Below, piece by piece: positions 10,619 to 57,555 of a stretch of 64,000 nucleotides of DNA. This DNA is from Rathayibacter sp. VKM Ac-2804. GTDB taxonomy: Bacteria; Actinomycetota; Actinomycetes; Actinomycetales; Microbacteriaceae. The stretch covers positions 3,410,001-3,474,000 of the forward strand of contig NZ_CP047420.1 in assembly GCF_009866655.1 (NCBI RefSeq), written 5' to 3'. The position numbers were made by a program, and so were the translations under genes. The number at the start of each line of letters is the position of its first letter. Within the stretch, counting starts at the first letter, position 1. The notes beneath the pieces were generated by a model that worked only from the letters and a program-made list of their open reading frames with translations, was not told where the DNA came from and did no database searches.

Positions 10619-10748
10619 CATGCTGGTCGAGTAGCGCCACAGGCGCGTATCGAGACCTGCCGTCATCAGCAGGGCGGATCTGCAGACTCATCCTGCTGAC
10701 GTGGGTGGATCTCGATACGCCCGCTGCGCGGGCTGCTCGATCAGCATG
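10619..10748. repeat. palindromic intergenic element 1 (130 bp)
   Basis: Begins CATGCTGGTCGAG and ends CTCGATCAGCATG, near-perfect 13-bp terminal inverted repeats. Inside, two sub-hairpins flank a centre with ATCTGCAGA, and the outer halves carry CGTATCGAGACC and GGATCTCGATACG. The unit is almost palindromic over its full length. Confidence 0.85.
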
Positions 10749-10765
10749 AAGGGCGCCTGCCTGCA

Positions 10766-10895
10766 CATGCTGGTCGAGTAGCCGCGGCACGCGGCGTATC
10801 GAGACCTCCGTGATCAGCACGGCGGGTCTGCAGACTCGACTGCGGACGCAGGTGGATCTCGATACGCCCGCTGCGCGGGCTCCTCGATCAGCATG
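10766..10895. repeat. palindromic intergenic element 2 (130 bp)
   Basis: Same length, termini and central GTCTGCAGAC as element 1, starting 18 nt after it. The inner hairpin in the right half is GCCCGC-TGC-GCGGGC. Confidence 0.85.
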
Positions 10896-10953: not shown

Positions 10954-10993
10954 GTGCTGGTCGAGCAGCGCCGCAGGCGCGTATCGAGACCCA
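10954..10993. repeat. palindromic intergenic element 3, left half only
   Basis: Matches the left 40 bp of element 1 (GTGCTGGTCGAG through GTATCGAGACCCAC), then stops. The flank upstream is also shared with element 1. Confidence 0.75.
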
Positions 10994-13229: not shown

Positions 13230-13269
13230 CGCCGGGCGCACCAGCAGAGGCTCTCCGGAGGCCGTCCCG

Positions 13270-20453: not shown

Positions 20454-20479
20454 CCGGTGCTCGTCCCTCCGGGCCGGCG

Positions 20480-22977: not shown

Positions 22978-23014
22978 CCCCGCCACTCGCGGAGCCCGCG
23001 CAGCGGGCGCCCTT

Positions 23015-23141
23015 TGCTGATCGAGTAGCGCGCGCAGCGCGCGTATCGAGATCCACCACCGTCGGCACGGTGGTCTGCAGACGCGGCGTCTCGGTGATGG
23101 AGGGTCTCGATACGCCCCTGCGGGGCTACTCGACCAGCATG
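23015..23141. repeat. palindromic intergenic element 4 (127 bp)
   Basis: From TGCTGATCGAGTAG to CTCGACCAGCATG, with GTATCGAGATCC and GGTCTCGATACG inside and a central GGTCTGCAGAC. It sits between the convergent DUF4229 and menA genes. Confidence 0.85.
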
Positions 23142-23150
23142 AGGGGTTGG

Positions 23151-24110
23151 TCAGAAGGCGAGGGCTGCGCCGAGGATCGCGGCGTAGGCGAGGCCGCTCA
23201 GGCTGGTCAGCTGCAGGGCGAGGATGAGCTCCTTCGCCGTGCGCGCGGTCAGCGTGATGAGGATGGCCGGCAGGACCGCCAGCAGGACGAAGAGCGTGAG
23301 CCAGGCCAGCGGGTAGAACAGCGCGAGCACCACCGCGATGCCGAACGGCACCAGCACGAAGGCGCTGTACATCGCCCGCGCGATGGTCGGACCGACGACG
23401 ACCGCGAGGGTCCGCTTGCCGGAGAGGCGGTCCGTCGGGATGTCGCGGATGTTGTTGACCATCAGCACCGCGCAGGCGAACAGGCCCGCGGCGACGGCGC
23501 CGAGCCAGGACTCCTGGTTCGCGCGGCCGATCTGCACGAACGTGGTGCCGACGGTGGCGACGAGTCCGAAGAAGACGAAGACGAAGAGCTCGCCGAGGCC
23601 GAGGTACCCGTAGGGACGCCGGCCGCCGGTGTAGAACCAGGCGGCGGCGATCGCGGCGGCCCCGATGATCAGGAACCACCAGAAGCCGGACAGCACCGTG
23701 AGCACGAGGCCCGCGACGCCCGCGATGCCGAAGAAGACCAGCGCGACCGTGAGGACGGCGCGGGGCTTCGCGGCTCCGGATCCGGTGAGGCGGGAGGGGC
23801 CGACGCGGTTCGCGTCCGTGCCGCGGATGCCGTCGGAGTAGTCGTTGGCGTAGTTGACGCCGATCTGCAGCGCGAGCGAGACGACGAGGCAGAGCAGGGC
23901 GCGCACCCAGTGCCAGCCCTCGTCCGTCACCTGGGTGGCCCCGGTGCCGATCAGGACGGGGGCGATGGCGAGCGGGAGGGTCCGCAGCCGCGCTCCGGCG
24001 ATCCACTCGCGCGGGCCGGCGGGCTCGACGACGACGCGGCGGGGGTCGCCGCCGGGGCGACCGCTCCGGGGCTTCGCCGACGGCTTCTTCTTGCGACTCG
24101 AACTCGACAC
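23151..24110 (-). CDS. menA: 1,4-dihydroxy-2-naphthoate polyprenyltransferase
   Basis: Integral membrane UbiA-type prenyltransferase that attaches the polyprenyl chain to the naphthoate ring, 319 residues with eight or nine membrane helices. The Mg-diphosphate motifs are intact: NYANDYSDGIRGTDANRVGP and NNIRDIPTDRLSGKRTLAV. A positively charged N-terminus of about 30 residues (SSSSRKKKPSAKP) precedes the first helix. The GTG at 24110 has TAGGAT 7 nt upstream (leaderless). It is the last gene of the menB-menE-menA row but has its own promoter. Confidence 0.93.
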   Translation of the reverse strand: MSSSSRKKKPSAKPRSGRPGGDPRRVVVEPAGPREWIAGARLRTLPLAIAPVLIGTGATQVTDEGWHWVRALLCLVVSLALQIGVNYANDYSDGIRGTDANRVGPSRLTGSGAAKPRAVLTVALVFFGIAGVAGLVLTVLSGFWWFLIIGAAAIAAAWFYTGGRRPYGYLGLGELFVFVFFGLVATVGTTFVQIGRANQESWLGAVAAGLFACAVLMVNNIRDIPTDRLSGKRTLAVVVGPTIARAMYSAFVLVPFGIAVVLALFYPLAWLTLFVLLAVLPAILITLTARTAKELILALQLTSLSGLAYAAILGAALAF

Positions 24111-26297: not shown

Positions 26298-26304
26298 GGC
26301 CTCG

Positions 26305-26310
26305 ACCCTA
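26305..26310 (-). promoter_or_regulatory. leaderless -10 box for menB
   Basis: TAGGGT on the minus strand, 7 nt before the ATG at 26297. Confidence 0.6.
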
Positions 26311-26349
26311 CTGTCGAGGGCTGGGGGCAGGATCGGTCCCGCTGCACCC

Positions 26350-26450
26350 TGCTGGTCGAGCAGTCCGCAGGGCGTATCGAGACCCGACCTCCACACTCGA
26401 GACGACGTGGATCTCGAGACGCCCGCTGCGCGGGCTGCTCGATCAGCATG
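26350..26450. repeat. palindromic intergenic element 5 (101 bp, short form)
   Basis: Same ends as the longer elements (TGCTGGTCGAG and CTCGATCAGCATG) but with the centre shortened by about 30 bp. It lies upstream of menB and downstream of dps, which run in the same direction. Confidence 0.8.
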
Positions 26451-26503
26451 AGATGCGCCCGCTCCGCACGCTCCTGCGTCGGCGGGCATCCCGGAGACGC
26501 GAA

Positions 26504-26531
26504 GAGGGACCCCGCGGTGGCGGGGTCCCTC
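26504..26531 (-). terminator. terminator of dps
   Basis: Perfect 11-bp stem GAGGGACCCCG (26504-26514) and CGGGGTCCCTC (26521-26531) with a 6-nt loop, starting 20 nt after the dps stop. It is the strongest hairpin in the window. Confidence 0.8.
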
Positions 26532-26550
26532 GACGGGTGGTGCGCTGGTG

Positions 26551-36095: not shown

Positions 36096-36141
36096 TGCTG
36101 ATCGAGCAGCCCGCGCGGCGGGCGCATCGAGATCCACCACC
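36096..36141. repeat. palindromic intergenic element, left half (46 bp)
   Basis: Starts TGCTGATCGAGCAG and runs to GCATCGAGATCCACCACC, the left half of the family; no right half follows. It lies between the GntR gene and the kinase gene. Confidence 0.75.
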
Positions 36142-38080: not shown

Positions 38081-38295
38081 GGGTGCGGATGCGCGTGCTC
38101 GCCCCAGCGAGTGGACCCGGAAAGGGGCCCGGCGCATCCGCAGGACCCGATCCGAGTCCACTCGCGGGAGCGGCCGCCGTCGACTGGACGCGAGCGGGGC
38201 CCTGCGCGCTGCGCAGACCCCGTTCCCGGTCGGGTCGATGGGCGGAGGAGCGACCCGACGACCACCCACTGATCCACGTGGGTCTCGTCAGGTCC

Positions 38296-38320
38296 CGAGG
38301 AGCTGCTCGACCAGCAAAGG
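38296..38320. repeat. palindromic intergenic element, right-end fragment
   Basis: GAGGAGCTGCTCGACCAGCA matches the right end of the family only. Confidence 0.5.
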
Positions 38321-38352: not shown

Positions 38353-38478
38353 TGCTGATCGAGGAGCCCGCGCAGCGCGCGCATCGAGATCCACCCGTGT
38401 CAGAAGACGGGCCGGCAGACCACCGTGCTGACAACGGCGGATCTCGATACGCCCCTGCGGGGCTACTCGACCAGCATG
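38353..38478. repeat. palindromic intergenic element 6 (126 bp)
   Basis: From TGCTGATCGAGGAG through GCATCGAGATCCACC, then GGATCTCGATACGCC and CTCGACCAGCATG. The centre is degenerate (GGCAGACC) compared with elements 1, 2 and 4. Confidence 0.82.
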
Positions 38479-48363: not shown

Positions 48364-49719
<1,356 letters not shown>

Positions 49720-49732
49720 GGCATGGCGGGCC

Positions 49733-49773
49733 GGGGTCTCGATTCGCCGCTGCGCGGCTACTCGACCAGCATG
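49733..49773. repeat. palindromic intergenic element, right half (41 bp)
   Basis: GGGTCTCGATTCGCC-GCTGCGCGGC and CTCGACCAGCATG; the right half of the family, 14 nt after the aspS stop. Confidence 0.75.
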
Positions 49774-49820
49774 AAGGTGCGCACGGGTTCACTTCGCGCT
49801 GCACGCGCGGGCGTCCGTCT

Positions 49821-49920
49821 CATGCTGATCGAGTAGCCCTCGCAGAGGGCGTATCGAGATCCACCCGCTCGCAGGACGGCGGATCTCGATACGCCGCTCC
49901 GCGCCTACTCGACCAGCATG
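49821..49920. repeat. palindromic intergenic element 8 (100 bp, short form)
   Basis: CATGCTGATCGAG to CTCGACCAGCATG, with short centre; the right end stops 11 nt before the stop codon of the membrane protein on the minus strand. Confidence 0.82.
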
Positions 49921-49930
49921 TGGAGCCGCG

Positions 49931-53371: not shown

Positions 53372-54309
53372 GCACGACGGAGCGCGCCACCGCCGATGCG
53401 CCCACGACCACCGGCATCGTCACCGCCGACCGGCCCGCGAAGGCCGGCCGCGGCCCCGACCGCTCGGCCGGGCGCAACCGCGCCTCGACGATCATCGTCA
53501 CCGCGATCCTCGTCGTCGTCGCGGTCTACTTCCTGATCCCGGTCTACTGGGTCGTCGTCGCCGCGACGAAGACCACGGGCGACCTCTTCGCCACCTACGG
53601 CTTCTGGTTCGCGCCGACCTTCGCGCTCTGGGACAACCTGGGCCAGGTGCTGACCTACGACGGCGGCATCTTCGTCCGCTGGTTCCTCAACTCCGTGCTC
53701 TACGCCGGCGTCGGCGCTCTGCTCGCGACCTACCTCGCGGCCGCGGGCGGCTACGCGCTGGCGAAGTACGAGTTCACGGGCAGCAGACTCGTCTTCGGCA
53801 CGATCCTCGCGGGCGTCCTCGTCCCCGGGACCGCCACCGCGCTCCCGCTGTTCCTGCTCTTCAGCCAGATGGGCATCGCGAACACCTACTGGAGTGTGCT
53901 GATCCCCTCGCTGGTCTCGCCCTTCGGCCTGTTCCTCTGCCGGATCTACGCGCAGGCGACGGTCGACACGGCCATCATCGAGGCGGCCAGGATCGACGGC
54001 GCGAGCGAGCTGCGGATCTTCCACACCCTCGGGCTGCGGATCCTCACCCCGGCGCTGGTCACCGTGTTCCTCTTCCAGCTGGTCGGGATCTGGAACAACT
54101 ACTTCCTGCCGCTCGTGATGCTCTCCGACACCGAGCTCTTCCCGATCACCCTCGGCCTGAACAACTGGCTCAGCCAGGTGGACCGGCTGCCCGAGTTCTA
54201 CGAGCTCACGACCGGCGGCGTCCTGCTGTCGATCATCCCGCTCGCCATCGCCATGATCGTGCTGCAGCGCTTCTGGCGCGGCGGCCTGACCGAAGGATCC
54301 GTGAAGTGA
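53368..54309 (+). CDS. sugar ABC transporter permease (MalG type)
   Basis: Second permease, 313 residues, six helices, with the EAA motif IIEAARIDGASELRIFHTLGLRILTP. The polar N-terminus of about 35 residues is longer than usual. No ATPase gene is present in the operon; as in many actinobacteria, a shared MsiK-type ATPase elsewhere probably energises the transporter. The ATG at 53368 overlaps the previous stop, and the stop overlaps lacZ. Confidence 0.93.
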   Translation: MSTTERATADAPTTTGIVTADRPAKAGRGPDRSAGRNRASTIIVTAILVVVAVYFLIPVYWVVVAATKTTGDLFATYGFWFAPTFALWDNLGQVLTYDGGIFVRWFLNSVLYAGVGALLATYLAAAGGYALAKYEFTGSRLVFGTILAGVLVPGTATALPLFLLFSQMGIANTYWSVLIPSLVSPFGLFLCRIYAQATVDTAIIEAARIDGASELRIFHTLGLRILTPALVTVFLFQLVGIWNNYFLPLVMLSDTELFPITLGLNNWLSQVDRLPEFYELTTGGVLLSIIPLAIAMIVLQRFWRGGLTEGSVK

Positions 54310-57300
54310 CCCTCGCCCCGACGTCCTCCCACTACCTCGCCGACACCGGCCCCGGCTCCGGCCGGCGCCGCGCCGCCCGCTCGTGGCTGCACTCCGACGC
54401 CCCGACGCTCCCGCTCGACGGGGACTGGCGCTTCCGCCTGCTCCCCGCCGCGCCGGGGACGCCCGGCGGTGCCGACGCGCTGCCCGAGGGCGAGGGGGTG
54501 GACGACGTCGGGGCGGAGTCCTTCGACGACTCCGGCTGGGACGTCCTGCCCGTCCCGTCGCACTGGGTCCTCCAGGGCGACGGCCGCTACGGGCTCCCCG
54601 CCTACACCAACGTGCAGTTCCCCTTCCCGACCGAGCCGCCGTTCGTCCCGGACGAGAACCCGACCGGCGACCACCGCCGCACCTTCGAGCTCCCGGAGTC
54701 GTTCGCCGGCGCCGAGGCGGTCGTGCTCCGCTTCGACGGCGTCGAGTCGCGCTACCGCGTCTGGGTCAACGGCGTCGAGATCGGCATCGGCTCCGGCAGC
54801 CGCCTCGCGCAGGAGTTCGACGTCACCGAGGTCGTGCGGCCCGGCGAGAACCTCGTCGTCGTCCGCGTGCACCAGTGGTCGGCGGCCAGCTACGTCGAGG
54901 ACCAGGACCAGTGGTGGCTGCCGGGGATCTTCCGCTCCGTGCACCTGATCGCCCGCCCGGTCGGCGGCGTCGAGGACGTCTTCGTGCGCGCCTCCTTCGC
55001 CGCCGGCGCGGGCCGGATCGAGACCGAGCTGACGGCCGGTGACGCGGCCTTCCCGGTCACCCTCCGCGTCCCCGAGCTCGGCATCGAGACGGTCTGGGCG
55101 AGCGCCGGCGAGGTCGGCCCGATCGAGGTCCCGGCCGTCGAGCCGTGGTCGGCGGAGGCGCCCCGGCTCTACGACGCCGAGGTCTCCTCCTCGGGCGAGA
55201 CGGTCTCGCTCCGCCTCGGCTTCCGCACGATCGAGATCCGAGGGGACCGCTTCCTCGTCAACGGCGAGCGCGTCGTCTTCCACGGCGTCAACCGCCACGA
55301 GACGCACCCCGACCGCGGCCGCGCCTTCGACGAGGAGTTCGCCCGCGCGGACCTCGCGATGATGAAGCGGTTCAACGTCAACGCGATCCGCACCAGCCAC
55401 TACCCGCCGCACCCGCGCCTGCTCGACCTCGCCGACGAGCTGGGCTTCTGGGTGATCCTCGAGTGCGACCTCGAGACCCACGGCTTCGAGCGCTACGGCT
55501 GGGCCGGCAACCCCAGCGACCACCCGGCCTGGCGCGAGGCGTACCTCGACCGGATCGAGCGCACCGTCGAGCGCGACAAGAACCATCCGAGCATCGTGAT
55601 CTGGTCGCTCGGCAACGAGGCCGGCACCGGGGCGAACCTCGCCGCGATGTCGGCGTGGGTGCACGGCCGCGACCCCGAGCGCCCCGTGCACTACGAGGGC
55701 GACTACACCGGTGCCTACACCGACGTGTACTCGCGGATGTACTCGTCGATCCCCGAGACCGAGCAGATCGGCCGCGACGACTCGCGGTCGCCGCTGCTCG
55801 GCTGCACGGCCGGCGAGTCCGCGCGCCAGCGCTCGAAGCCGTTCCTGCTCTGCGAGTACGTGCACGCGATGGGCAACGGCCCCGGAGCGATCGGCCAGTA
55901 CGAGGACCTCGTCGACCGCTACCCGCGGCTGCACGGCGGCTTCGTCTGGGAGTGGCGCGACCACGGACTGCGCGCCCGCACTCCCGAGGGCGTCGAGTAC
56001 TACGCCTACGGCGGCGACTTCGGCGAGGTCGTGCACGACGGCAACTTCGTGATGGACGGCATGGTCCTCTCCGACGGCACGCCGAGCCCGGGGCTGTTCG
56101 AGTGGAAGCAGATCGTGGCGCCGGTGCGCGTCACGGTCGAGCTCGACGCCGTGCTGATCGAGAACCGGCGGCACGACGCGTCGACCGCCGACCTGCGCTT
56201 CGAGTGGCGGGTCGAGCTCGACGGGCGGATCACCGCGGAGGGCGTGCTCGACGCTCCGGCGATCGCGGCGGGCGACTCCGCTCGCGTGGCGCTGCCGGCG
56301 CTCGACGTGCCGACCGGCGGCGAGGCGTGGCTGAGCGTCGACGCGGTCCTCGCGTCGAGCACGGTCTGGGCCGAGGAGGGGCACGTGCTCTCCACCGGTC
56401 AGCGCCGGCTCTCCGCGCCGGCACCCGTCCCCGCCTGGGCGCGCTCGCCCCGCGACGGCGCGCCCGTCGAGGGCGCCCTGGGCCTCGCGAGCTTCCGCAA
56501 CGGGCGGCTCACCGCCCTGGCCGGGCTGGCGGTCGACGGCCCGCGCGCCGAGCTCTGGCGCGCGCCGACCGACAACGACGAGGGCGACGGCTTCCCCGCG
56601 TACACGGACGGCGACCCGTACACCGGCAACGGCAACGGCGTGCCCGCGCCGTCCTCCGCGAGTCGCTGGCGCGAGGCGGGCCTGGACCGCCTCGTCGGCC
56701 GCGTCGAGTCGGTCGACACCTCGTCGGGCGTCCGCCGGCGGACCCGCTGGTCGGCCGCCGACCTCGATGCGGCGCTCCTCGTCGAGGAGCAGTGGAGCAC
56801 CGACGGCGACGCGGTCGTCCTGCGCGTCGACCTGGTGCCGACCCGCGGCTGGGGCTCGGTCTGGCCGCGGCTCGGCGTCCGGCTCGACCTCCCGGCCTCG
56901 GTCGACGGCGCCGAGTGGTTCGGCACCGGTCCGCGGGAGTCGTACCCGGACAGCCTCCGCGCCGCCCGGGTCGGCCGCTTCTCCGCCGGCATCGACGAGC
57001 TGAAGACGGAGTACGCGCGCCCGCAGGAGAACGGGCACCGCAGCGCCGTCCGCGAGCTGGTCCTCCGCGAGGGCGGGACCGATCGCCTCCGCATCGAGGC
57101 GGCGCCCGACCTGCACGGCCGGCTCCCCGGCTTCACGCTCGCGCGCCACACCGCGCACGAGCTGACCGCCGCCGGGCACCCGCACGAGCTGCCCGCCTCC
57201 ACCCGCTCGGTGCTCACGATCGACGCCGCCCAGCACGGCCTCGGCTCGCGCGCCTGCGGCCCGGACGTCTGGCCGGACTTCCAGCTGCGCCCGGAGGCTC

Positions 57301-57335
57301 GCACCATCCTGCTGCGCTTCACCGCGGCCGGCTGA
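54306..57335 (+). CDS. lacZ: GH2 beta-galactosidase
   Basis: Large glycoside hydrolase of 1009 residues, full LacZ length, no signal peptide. It has the N-terminal sugar-binding and immunoglobulin-like domains, then a TIM barrel with VNRHETHPDRGR, IRTSHYPPHPRLL, acid/base E438 in SLGNEAGTG and nucleophile E517 in LLCEYVHAMGNGPG; the C-terminal domain has ELWRAPTDND and TGPRESYPDS. It should cleave beta-galactosides imported by the adjoining transporter. The GTG start overlaps the permease stop. Palindromic repeats follow the stop. Confidence 0.95.
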   Translation: MTLAPTSSHYLADTGPGSGRRRAARSWLHSDAPTLPLDGDWRFRLLPAAPGTPGGADALPEGEGVDDVGAESFDDSGWDVLPVPSHWVLQGDGRYGLPAYTNVQFPFPTEPPFVPDENPTGDHRRTFELPESFAGAEAVVLRFDGVESRYRVWVNGVEIGIGSGSRLAQEFDVTEVVRPGENLVVVRVHQWSAASYVEDQDQWWLPGIFRSVHLIARPVGGVEDVFVRASFAAGAGRIETELTAGDAAFPVTLRVPELGIETVWASAGEVGPIEVPAVEPWSAEAPRLYDAEVSSSGETVSLRLGFRTIEIRGDRFLVNGERVVFHGVNRHETHPDRGRAFDEEFARADLAMMKRFNVNAIRTSHYPPHPRLLDLADELGFWVILECDLETHGFERYGWAGNPSDHPAWREAYLDRIERTVERDKNHPSIVIWSLGNEAGTGANLAAMSAWVHGRDPERPVHYEGDYTGAYTDVYSRMYSSIPETEQIGRDDSRSPLLGCTAGESARQRSKPFLLCEYVHAMGNGPGAIGQYEDLVDRYPRLHGGFVWEWRDHGLRARTPEGVEYYAYGGDFGEVVHDGNFVMDGMVLSDGTPSPGLFEWKQIVAPVRVTVELDAVLIENRRHDASTADLRFEWRVELDGRITAEGVLDAPAIAAGDSARVALPALDVPTGGEAWLSVDAVLASSTVWAEEGHVLSTGQRRLSAPAPVPAWARSPRDGAPVEGALGLASFRNGRLTALAGLAVDGPRAELWRAPTDNDEGDGFPAYTDGDPYTGNGNGVPAPSSASRWREAGLDRLVGRVESVDTSSGVRRRTRWSAADLDAALLVEEQWSTDGDAVVLRVDLVPTRGWGSVWPRLGVRLDLPASVDGAEWFGTGPRESYPDSLRAARVGRFSAGIDELKTEYARPQENGHRSAVRELVLREGGTDRLRIEAAPDLHGRLPGFTLARHTAHELTAAGHPHELPASTRSVLTIDAAQHGLGSRACGPDVWPDFQLRPEARTILLRFTAAG

Positions 57336-57340
57336 CAGAC

Positions 57341-57382
57341 GGCGGGTCTCGATACGCCCTCCGGGCTACTCGACCAGCAAGG
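57341..57382. repeat. palindromic intergenic element, right half (42 bp)
   Basis: GGCGGGTCTCGATACGCC through CTCGACCAGCAAGG, 5 nt after the lacZ stop; a right half of the family. Confidence 0.75.
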
Positions 57383-57427: not shown

Positions 57428-57555
57428 TGCTGATCGAGGAGCCCGCGCGGCGGGCGCATCGAGATCCACCACCGTCAGCACCCGGGTCTGCAGACCCGCC
57501 CTGCTGAGGACGGCGGGTCTCGGCACGCCCCCGCGGGGGCTGCTCGACCAGCACG
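57428..57555. repeat. palindromic intergenic element 10 (128 bp)
   Basis: TGCTGATCGAGGAG to CTGCTCGACCAGCACG, with centre GGGTCTGCAGACCC (a perfect palindrome) and GCATCGAGATCC/GGTCTCGGCACG in the halves. Confidence 0.85.

Follow-up and report, generated by a model that had tools for sequence, protein, structure and literature searches.

What are the palindromic elements of 100 to 130 bp that recur along a 64,000-nucleotide stretch of Rathayibacter sp. VKM Ac-2804 (contig NZ_CP047420.1, positions 3,410,001 to 3,474,000; hereafter the window), and which enzyme could move them? A sequence-only reading of the window had likened them to repetitive extragenic palindromes (REP), bacterial interspersed mosaic elements (BIME) or miniature inverted-repeat transposable elements (MITE), mobilised in trans. 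Their REP/BIME-like, extragenic and MITE-like character is supported by covariation, pairing and placement, and mobilisation in trans is also our best reading, one that we infer. The elements are very probably an actinobacterial REP/BIME family, in which opposed hairpins of two types, L and R, make up a BIME that is about 100 or 128 bp long. The same hairpins are found as the ends of multi-copy genes encoding DUF222 and HNH domains (DUF222-HNH), and we lean towards these proteins being the functional mobilisers of the REPs. The find is a REP system without REP-associated tyrosine transposase (RAYT) and with a concrete candidate enzyme.

Hairpin Units in the Window

An nhmmer search with an alignment of the copies themselves recovered all seven full copies that had been described, with E from 1e-33 to 1e-19. 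The halves and decayed copies also mentioned by the sequence-only reading exist, nhmmer giving four solo halves and one decayed half. Their positions in the window are as follows.

10619..10748, + strand: full copy, long class; L 10621-10657 (+), R 10708-10746 (-), 50-bp spacer; convergent gap
10766..10895, + strand: full copy, long class; L 10768-10806 (+), R 10855-10893 (-), 48-bp spacer
10955..10991, + strand: solo L hairpin, extending the alternating cluster
23015..23141, - strand: full copy, long class; R 23015-23053 (+), L 23103-23139 (-), 49-bp spacer; the end of gene 23151-24110 (-) is 11 bp away
26350..26450, + strand: full copy with 25-bp spacer; L 26350-26384 (+), R 26410-26448 (-)
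36096..36134, + strand: solo R hairpin, co-directional genes on either side
38269..38316, - strand: decayed half, weak match (E 0.0025)
38353..38478, - strand: full copy, long class; R 38353-38391 (+), L 38440-38476 (-), 48-bp spacer; convergent gap
49735..49771, - strand: solo L hairpin; gene 48364-49719 stops 15 bp before
49821..49920, - strand: full copy, short class; R 49823-49861 (+), L 49882-49918 (-), 20-bp spacer
57345..57379, - strand: solo L hairpin; gene 54306-57335 stops 9 bp before
57428..57555, - strand: full copy, long class; R 57428-57466 (+), L 57516-57553 (-), 49-bp spacer

Allowing up to 2 mismatches, the end motif occurred 43 times against 4.2 expected, a count reached by none of 100 dinucleotide shuffles. 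The shared ends are recurrent, as had been claimed, but their leading CA is not constant, 69 of 99 halves having it before TGC.. Full copies are real and fold strongly, each of the seven beating all 200 of its own shuffles (z from -5.6 to -7.9); however, the conserved object is not the full copy, which had been taken as the unit, but a half of 35-41 nt that is itself a hairpin, and the two halves differ systematically. The half is laid out as TGCTG[G/A]TC-GA-GTA-apical stem-GTA-TC-GA-GA[C/T]C. Type L carries GGTC/GACC and type R carries GATC/GATC, the difference between them being itself a compensatory pair. GTAG (or GNAG) is conserved, but it is located between the foot and the apical stem and not at the palindrome end.

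Halves from the window and from 20 stretches of 20 kb taken at even intervals along the genome (109 in total) were used for the analysis of pairing, and covariation was calculated on the 61 that had distinct sequence, intact ends and a length of 35, 37 or 39 nt. In these, 96.6% of the stem cells were paired, against 22-46% in slid controls; double changes affected 81 stem cells, shuffles giving 21.5, and none of 500 shuffles reached the covariation score. Over 464 kb there were 35 head-to-head pairs, 29 of which joined L with R. The spacer measured 18-20 bp in 12 of them and 48-50 bp in 18, the other five having 16, 25, 55, 62 and 72 bp. The sizes of about 130 and 100 bp given by the earlier reading were both seen and reflect these two spacer classes, and the central GTCTGCAGAC is confined to the long one. 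The half agrees with the imperfect, hairpin-forming palindromes of 20-40 nt by which REP/BIME are recognised, and the alternating orientation with defined spacers is also present (30 of the 35 pairs at 18-20 or 48-50 bp).

An Rfam scan of the window matched tRNA alone. At L011 8319-8417 there is a small tandem of truncated halves, formed by three near-identical hairpin units of about 31 bp placed head-to-tail.

Copy Number and Genomic Placement

The sample of 400 kb contained 91 halves (E <= 1e-4), which extrapolates to about 930 in the 4.09-Mb genome. With a strict pattern 355 exact genome matches were obtained and with a looser one 502, the reversed control giving 0; these counts exceed the 100 copies per genome that characterise REP/BIME. 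The density noted for the 64 kb is real but genome-wide, and the window, with 18 halves at the same threshold, is only slightly above the sample.

The suspected intergenic bias was strong: none of the 109 half midpoints fell inside genes called with our own codon-usage caller (coding fraction 0.85), and the family is extragenic in the sense used for REP/BIME. The halves formed 46 clusters, located between convergent genes (22), co-directional genes (17) or divergent genes (4), or at stretch ends (3). Convergent genes thus flank 22 of the 43 placed clusters, against a share of 19% that convergent gaps of at least 60 bp (n = 41) have in the total length of gaps this large. The median distance was 40 bp to the flanking stop codon (61 distances) and 108 bp to the start (25 distances).

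DUF222-HNH Genes with Hairpin Ends

In all the stretches compared, eight genes were flanked on each side by halves no more than 350 bp away, and four of them constituted one family, with two copies in this genome (G000 in locus names) and two at the same places in G014, its closest relative; their domains are DUF222 and HNH. Taking PF02720 as the definition, there are 14 DUF222 genes in this genome and 16 in G014, and the complete hairpin-ended arrangement was found in 6 and 4 of them, respectively. Here the called start is preceded, at 153-154 bp, by a + hairpin, and an R hairpin follows the stop at 7-10 bp; the upstream hairpin is of L type, though degenerate in L218 and L227. Many copies were called from GTG, and considering that the database protein P0001 (434 aa) starts 36 bp upstream, 154 bp correspond to about 118 bp from ATG. 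In the long form of the element, about 118 bp separate the L hairpin from the database ATG of a 434-codon DUF222-HNH gene, and the R hairpin comes 7-10 bp after that gene. Copies L231 (frame not recovered), L230 (overlong frame), and L232 and L236 (cut by the contig end) were counted as lacking it. The remaining PF02720 copies kept one such end or had altered ends; neither flank of L048 or L044 held a half, and in L212, L213, and L214 halves were confined to the downstream side, in a different arrangement.

Among seven paralogues of this genome, ungapped identity fell from 0.8-1.0 close to the start to 0.4-0.6 across the L half and to about 0.3 further out. From 10 bp after the stop it was also about 0.3, because the spacers of 7-10 bp shift the R halves out of register; by eye, the R half is common to the paralogues and the DNA beyond is unrelated. 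In 664 kb of this genome, with 522 genes, the oriented geometry was observed only in the two DUF222 genes present there and in 0 of the 520 others. Beside the R half, the BIME consensus (16 long BIMEs) is similar to the final part of the open reading frame of the gene copies (13), stop codon included. At locus 1 (G000:3531007) the gene is present in G000 and G014 and gene-less BIMEs occupy G007 and G006, and at locus 2 (G000:3649439) the gene is present in G000 and G014 and BIMEs are found in G007; this comparison covers the relatives other than G005 and most of G011.

The sequence-only reading had proposed looking for an element with a gene and the same ends. The L-DUF222-HNH-R copies are a multi-copy unit of that kind, with terminal inverted repeats common to a gene-bearing element as in MITEs, but its protein has DUF222 and HNH domains only and is no known transposase. 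The other partner suggested, a RAYT/Y1 transposase, did not appear: PF01797 was without match in 15 of 15 Rathayibacter genomes, this one included, and a search of 60 genomes overall found it in 3. With no PF01797 match in these genomes of the genus, RAYT/Y1 was set aside as a candidate mobiliser. A published survey reports Actinobacteridae with only IS200-type members of that superfamily (PMC6006769).

As modelled, the N-terminal domain of DUF222-HNH may resemble the DNA-binding domains of ParB/Noc (Foldseek E 0.13).

Other end sequences (ggatctacttggaagaga..cgca before CATG; ..tacgtactaggtgatctttcct..) replace the R or L half in some DUF222 copies, namely at the 3' ends of L222 (G000) and of L224, L226, and L239 (G014) and at the 5' end of L223 (G014), and are perhaps a third kind of end. 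The 5' flank of L226 is chimaeric, the left side and part of the centre of a BIME being joined to the DUF222 upstream region.

Comparison with Relatives

Empty sites, on which the case for mobility had been made to depend, exist among seven syntenic relatives, the same gaps being occupied in some and empty in others. The gap 26298-26550, which holds copy 26350..26450, has no scored half in G003, G006, G007, and G011 (in G006 it is 2.1 kb longer), and the gap 22978-23150 has none in G003, G006, and G010. Conversely, the gap 13230-13269 is empty in this genome and contains four halves in G007 and three in G005, and 20454-20479, also empty here, contains two halves each in G011 and G006 and, by alignment, one in G003. 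The short target duplications that were expected did not appear, 29 pairs showing no excess at 2-8 bp.

The aligned blocks of G014 are mostly 89-97% identical to this genome. Between the two, 15 element-bearing gaps are common, one is G014-only and lies within a 3.3-kb length difference, and ten are not alignable. G014 has 102 halves against 52 here, and 59 against 32 at the common gaps. A tandem of four units of about 207 bp is found in G014 where this genome has one half, and arrays reach eight halves; arrays grow in place. At 49821-49920 the spacer is short in this genome and long in the orthologous copy of G014.

Hairpins of the same superfamily were observed behind the orthologue of the window gene 48364-49719 in 4 of 80 genome loci (L132 4364-4470, L144 4501-4551, L149 4349, and L188 4386; Rathayibacter, Mycetocola, Agromyces). 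REP-free convergent gaps of G003, G006, G010, and G011, orthologous to window 13230-13269, 22978-23150, and 49720-49930, hold other long palindromes (e.g., gagggaacccc..ggggttccctc), possibly two-way terminators.

DUF222 Genes in Other Genomes and Genera

DUF222-HNH genes were found in 46 of the 60 genomes searched, with a maximum of 28 matches in one. In G003 an L half lies 137-138 bp upstream in 3 of 15 DUF222 loci (L290, L291, L294), and L291 and L292 have an opposite-strand L half about 60 bp downstream; most of the remaining loci have none. When inverted repeats were sought locus by locus, 27 of 30 loci remained below z 4, with L037 at z 12.7, L047 at z 4.2 and one more without gene match. 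Outside Rathayibacter the same test on 27 loci gave one strong case (L285) and two weak ones (L267, L289), two loci having flanks that were too short.

Loci of three genomes of other Microbacteriaceae were picked after the positive result of L285, covering 7 of 11 matches in G478, 5 of 13 in G545 and 5 of 11 in G559. The DUF222 genes of G478 and G545 are flanked by another dispersed hairpin repeat, GGTC[C/A]CTGAGC[C/T]TGTCGAAG; it starts 92-94 bp before the start codon in 6 of the 7 copies examined in G478 and all 5 in G545, and 190-211 bp before it in all 5 in G559. Downstream of the stop, every one of these copies except L342 has the repeat in inverted orientation. Exact matches to the core of this second repeat numbered 583 in G478, 367 in G545, 279 in G559 and 142 in G035, with 9 in G008, 1 in G557 and 0 in the remaining ten of 16 genomes. 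G035 has nine DUF222 matches, and among the eight in the listed part seven have the second repeat within about 430 bp. G557 has 136 matches to the first-repeat pattern, and in 2 of 5 DUF222 copies the repeat lies 8 bp past the stop, on the strand opposite to the Rathayibacter arrangement. In G015, G572, and G506 neither repeat is abundant and the comparison of paralogues gave no shared inverted flanks. Taking into account that the genes are flanked in repeat-rich genomes and unflanked elsewhere, flanking goes with repeat abundance. Such agreement would be expected of a matched pair; chance proximity would favour it too, and the near-fixed distances speak against chance.

In Rathayibacter G008 (L310-L317) another hairpin-like repeat (gctgattgagcctgccgaaatc..) lies shortly behind several DUF222 genes. 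In G270 (C1:166665-383008), from another actinobacterial order, 156 foot-pattern matches were found, partly in tandem arrays with a period of about 168 bp.

Proposed Mechanism and Alternatives

By comparison with what has been described for REP, BIME, and REPIN (paired REPs) with RAYT (TnpA-REP), the sources (PMC2817692, PMC3116915, PMC3733652) give the same short imperfect hairpins in hundreds of extragenic copies of alternating orientation, with two hairpin types, defined spacers and a hairpin-flanked partner gene. In contrast to those systems, no Y1/RAYT gene was found here, the partner is a DUF222-HNH gene that is multi-copy with its own ends, and GTAG lies inside the hairpin and not at its end. 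CGTC-tagged REPs are likewise reported without a dedicated transposase (PMC3733652), so REPs without RAYT exist; they differ in sequence, and a candidate partner gene is present here. The MITEs of DDE insertion sequences are also gene-less palindromic relatives with terminal inverted repeats common to a gene-bearing element; here, however, there is no target duplication, no transposase domain is reported in the partner protein, and the ends are structured hairpins also found singly. The REP13E12/13E12 repeats of mycobacteria are equally multi-copy DUF222-HNH units among repetitive elements, and the portion of PMC10589994 that describes them does not mention hairpin ends or a gene-less derivative family. 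The Rathayibacter family is not named in the portions of the REP literature available.

The mechanism that we propose is one in which we infer the action of DUF222-HNH on the hairpins and every catalytic step. The N-terminal ParB/Noc-like domain would bind the palindromic ends and the C-terminal HNH nuclease would nick or cut at the hairpin ends. Segments bearing these ends, either carrying the gene or gene-less and acted on in trans, would be copied into, or moved to, new sites outside genes, chiefly downstream of stop codons, and local duplication would then enlarge the arrays. The BIME would be a gene-less relative of the L-DUF222-HNH-R element, with its two ends joined.

Several observations weigh against this mechanism. 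Complete ends are carried by a minority of the DUF222 genes only, and the paralogues share only 74-87% identity with the query protein, which gives no sign of a recent burst; nor was a clean new site seen in the comparison with G014. Among the 30 best PF02720 loci, three contained matches to model R1, four in all. This first test looked negative because the top-scoring PF02720 members, mostly without hairpin ends, belong mostly to other subfamilies, and the link was then tested on the remaining gene copies and in other genera. The arrangement was found in 0 of 6 DUF222 loci examined in G011, which has 360 REPs; G026 (82% complete) has 29 hairpin matches and no DUF222, and model R1 is without match in G004, which carries 20 DUF222 genes. 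The link itself came from the search for flanked genes and was not predicted, and the ParB/Noc match involves a helical domain, for which a Z of that order can arise by chance.

The REPs could be targets and not ends moved by the enzyme: spread by something else, such as a lost RAYT, they would offer BIME spacers that a homing-endonuclease-like DUF222-HNH cuts and copies itself into. The HNH domain and the two loci that alternate between BIME with and without gene agree with such homing; a fixed insertion point in the spacer would also yield fixed geometry, and at locus 1 of G003 the DUF222 gene adjoins BIMEs but has no R end, which is also a point against our mechanism. We consider homing less likely than our mechanism but a serious rival; against it, no intact BIME spacer was seen split by the gene and G478, G545, G559, and G557 have a like association with their own repeats at different distances. 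Somewhat less likely again, though also a serious rival, would be passive carriage, in which an unknown or extinct enzyme moves the REPs and a gene once enclosed by L and R was duplicated through REP recombination. REP-rich genomes offer many chances of enclosure, the association is limited to a minority of DUF222 genes, and the CGTC class, already mentioned, sets a precedent; yet the association recurs with at least one other repeat family, in other genera and at fixed distances, and none of the 520 other genes has the geometry.

The convergent placement, the short distance to stop codons and the stem covariation would also be expected if the hairpins did not move and were kept at gene ends as bidirectional terminators, mRNA 3'-end structures or nucleoid sites. 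Such a selected role is very improbable, considering that separate terminator-like hairpins adjoin the element at 26298-26550, that relatives keep the same genes but lack the elements at these sites, and that the arrays are as long as described. The elements may nevertheless influence transcription as a side effect.

Implications

To our knowledge, no mover has been assigned to REPs without RAYTs, and we know of no job for the DUF222-HNH genes. A full-text search, with most subscription journals outside its scope, found no literature linking the two. We suggest, tentatively, that DUF222-HNH proteins may form a novel class of mobilising enzymes, in which a palindrome reader of ParB type is joined to an HNH nuclease and the proteins of each lineage are matched to its own hairpin family; with the same reserve, this class would move segments that have hairpin REPs at their ends, whether or not they contain a gene. 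If true, it would be the actinobacterial counterpart of RAYT, made of unrelated parts. The link would address at once the REPs that lack a known mover and the DUF222-HNH genes that lack a known role, and it gives testable pairs of enzyme and hairpin across genera.
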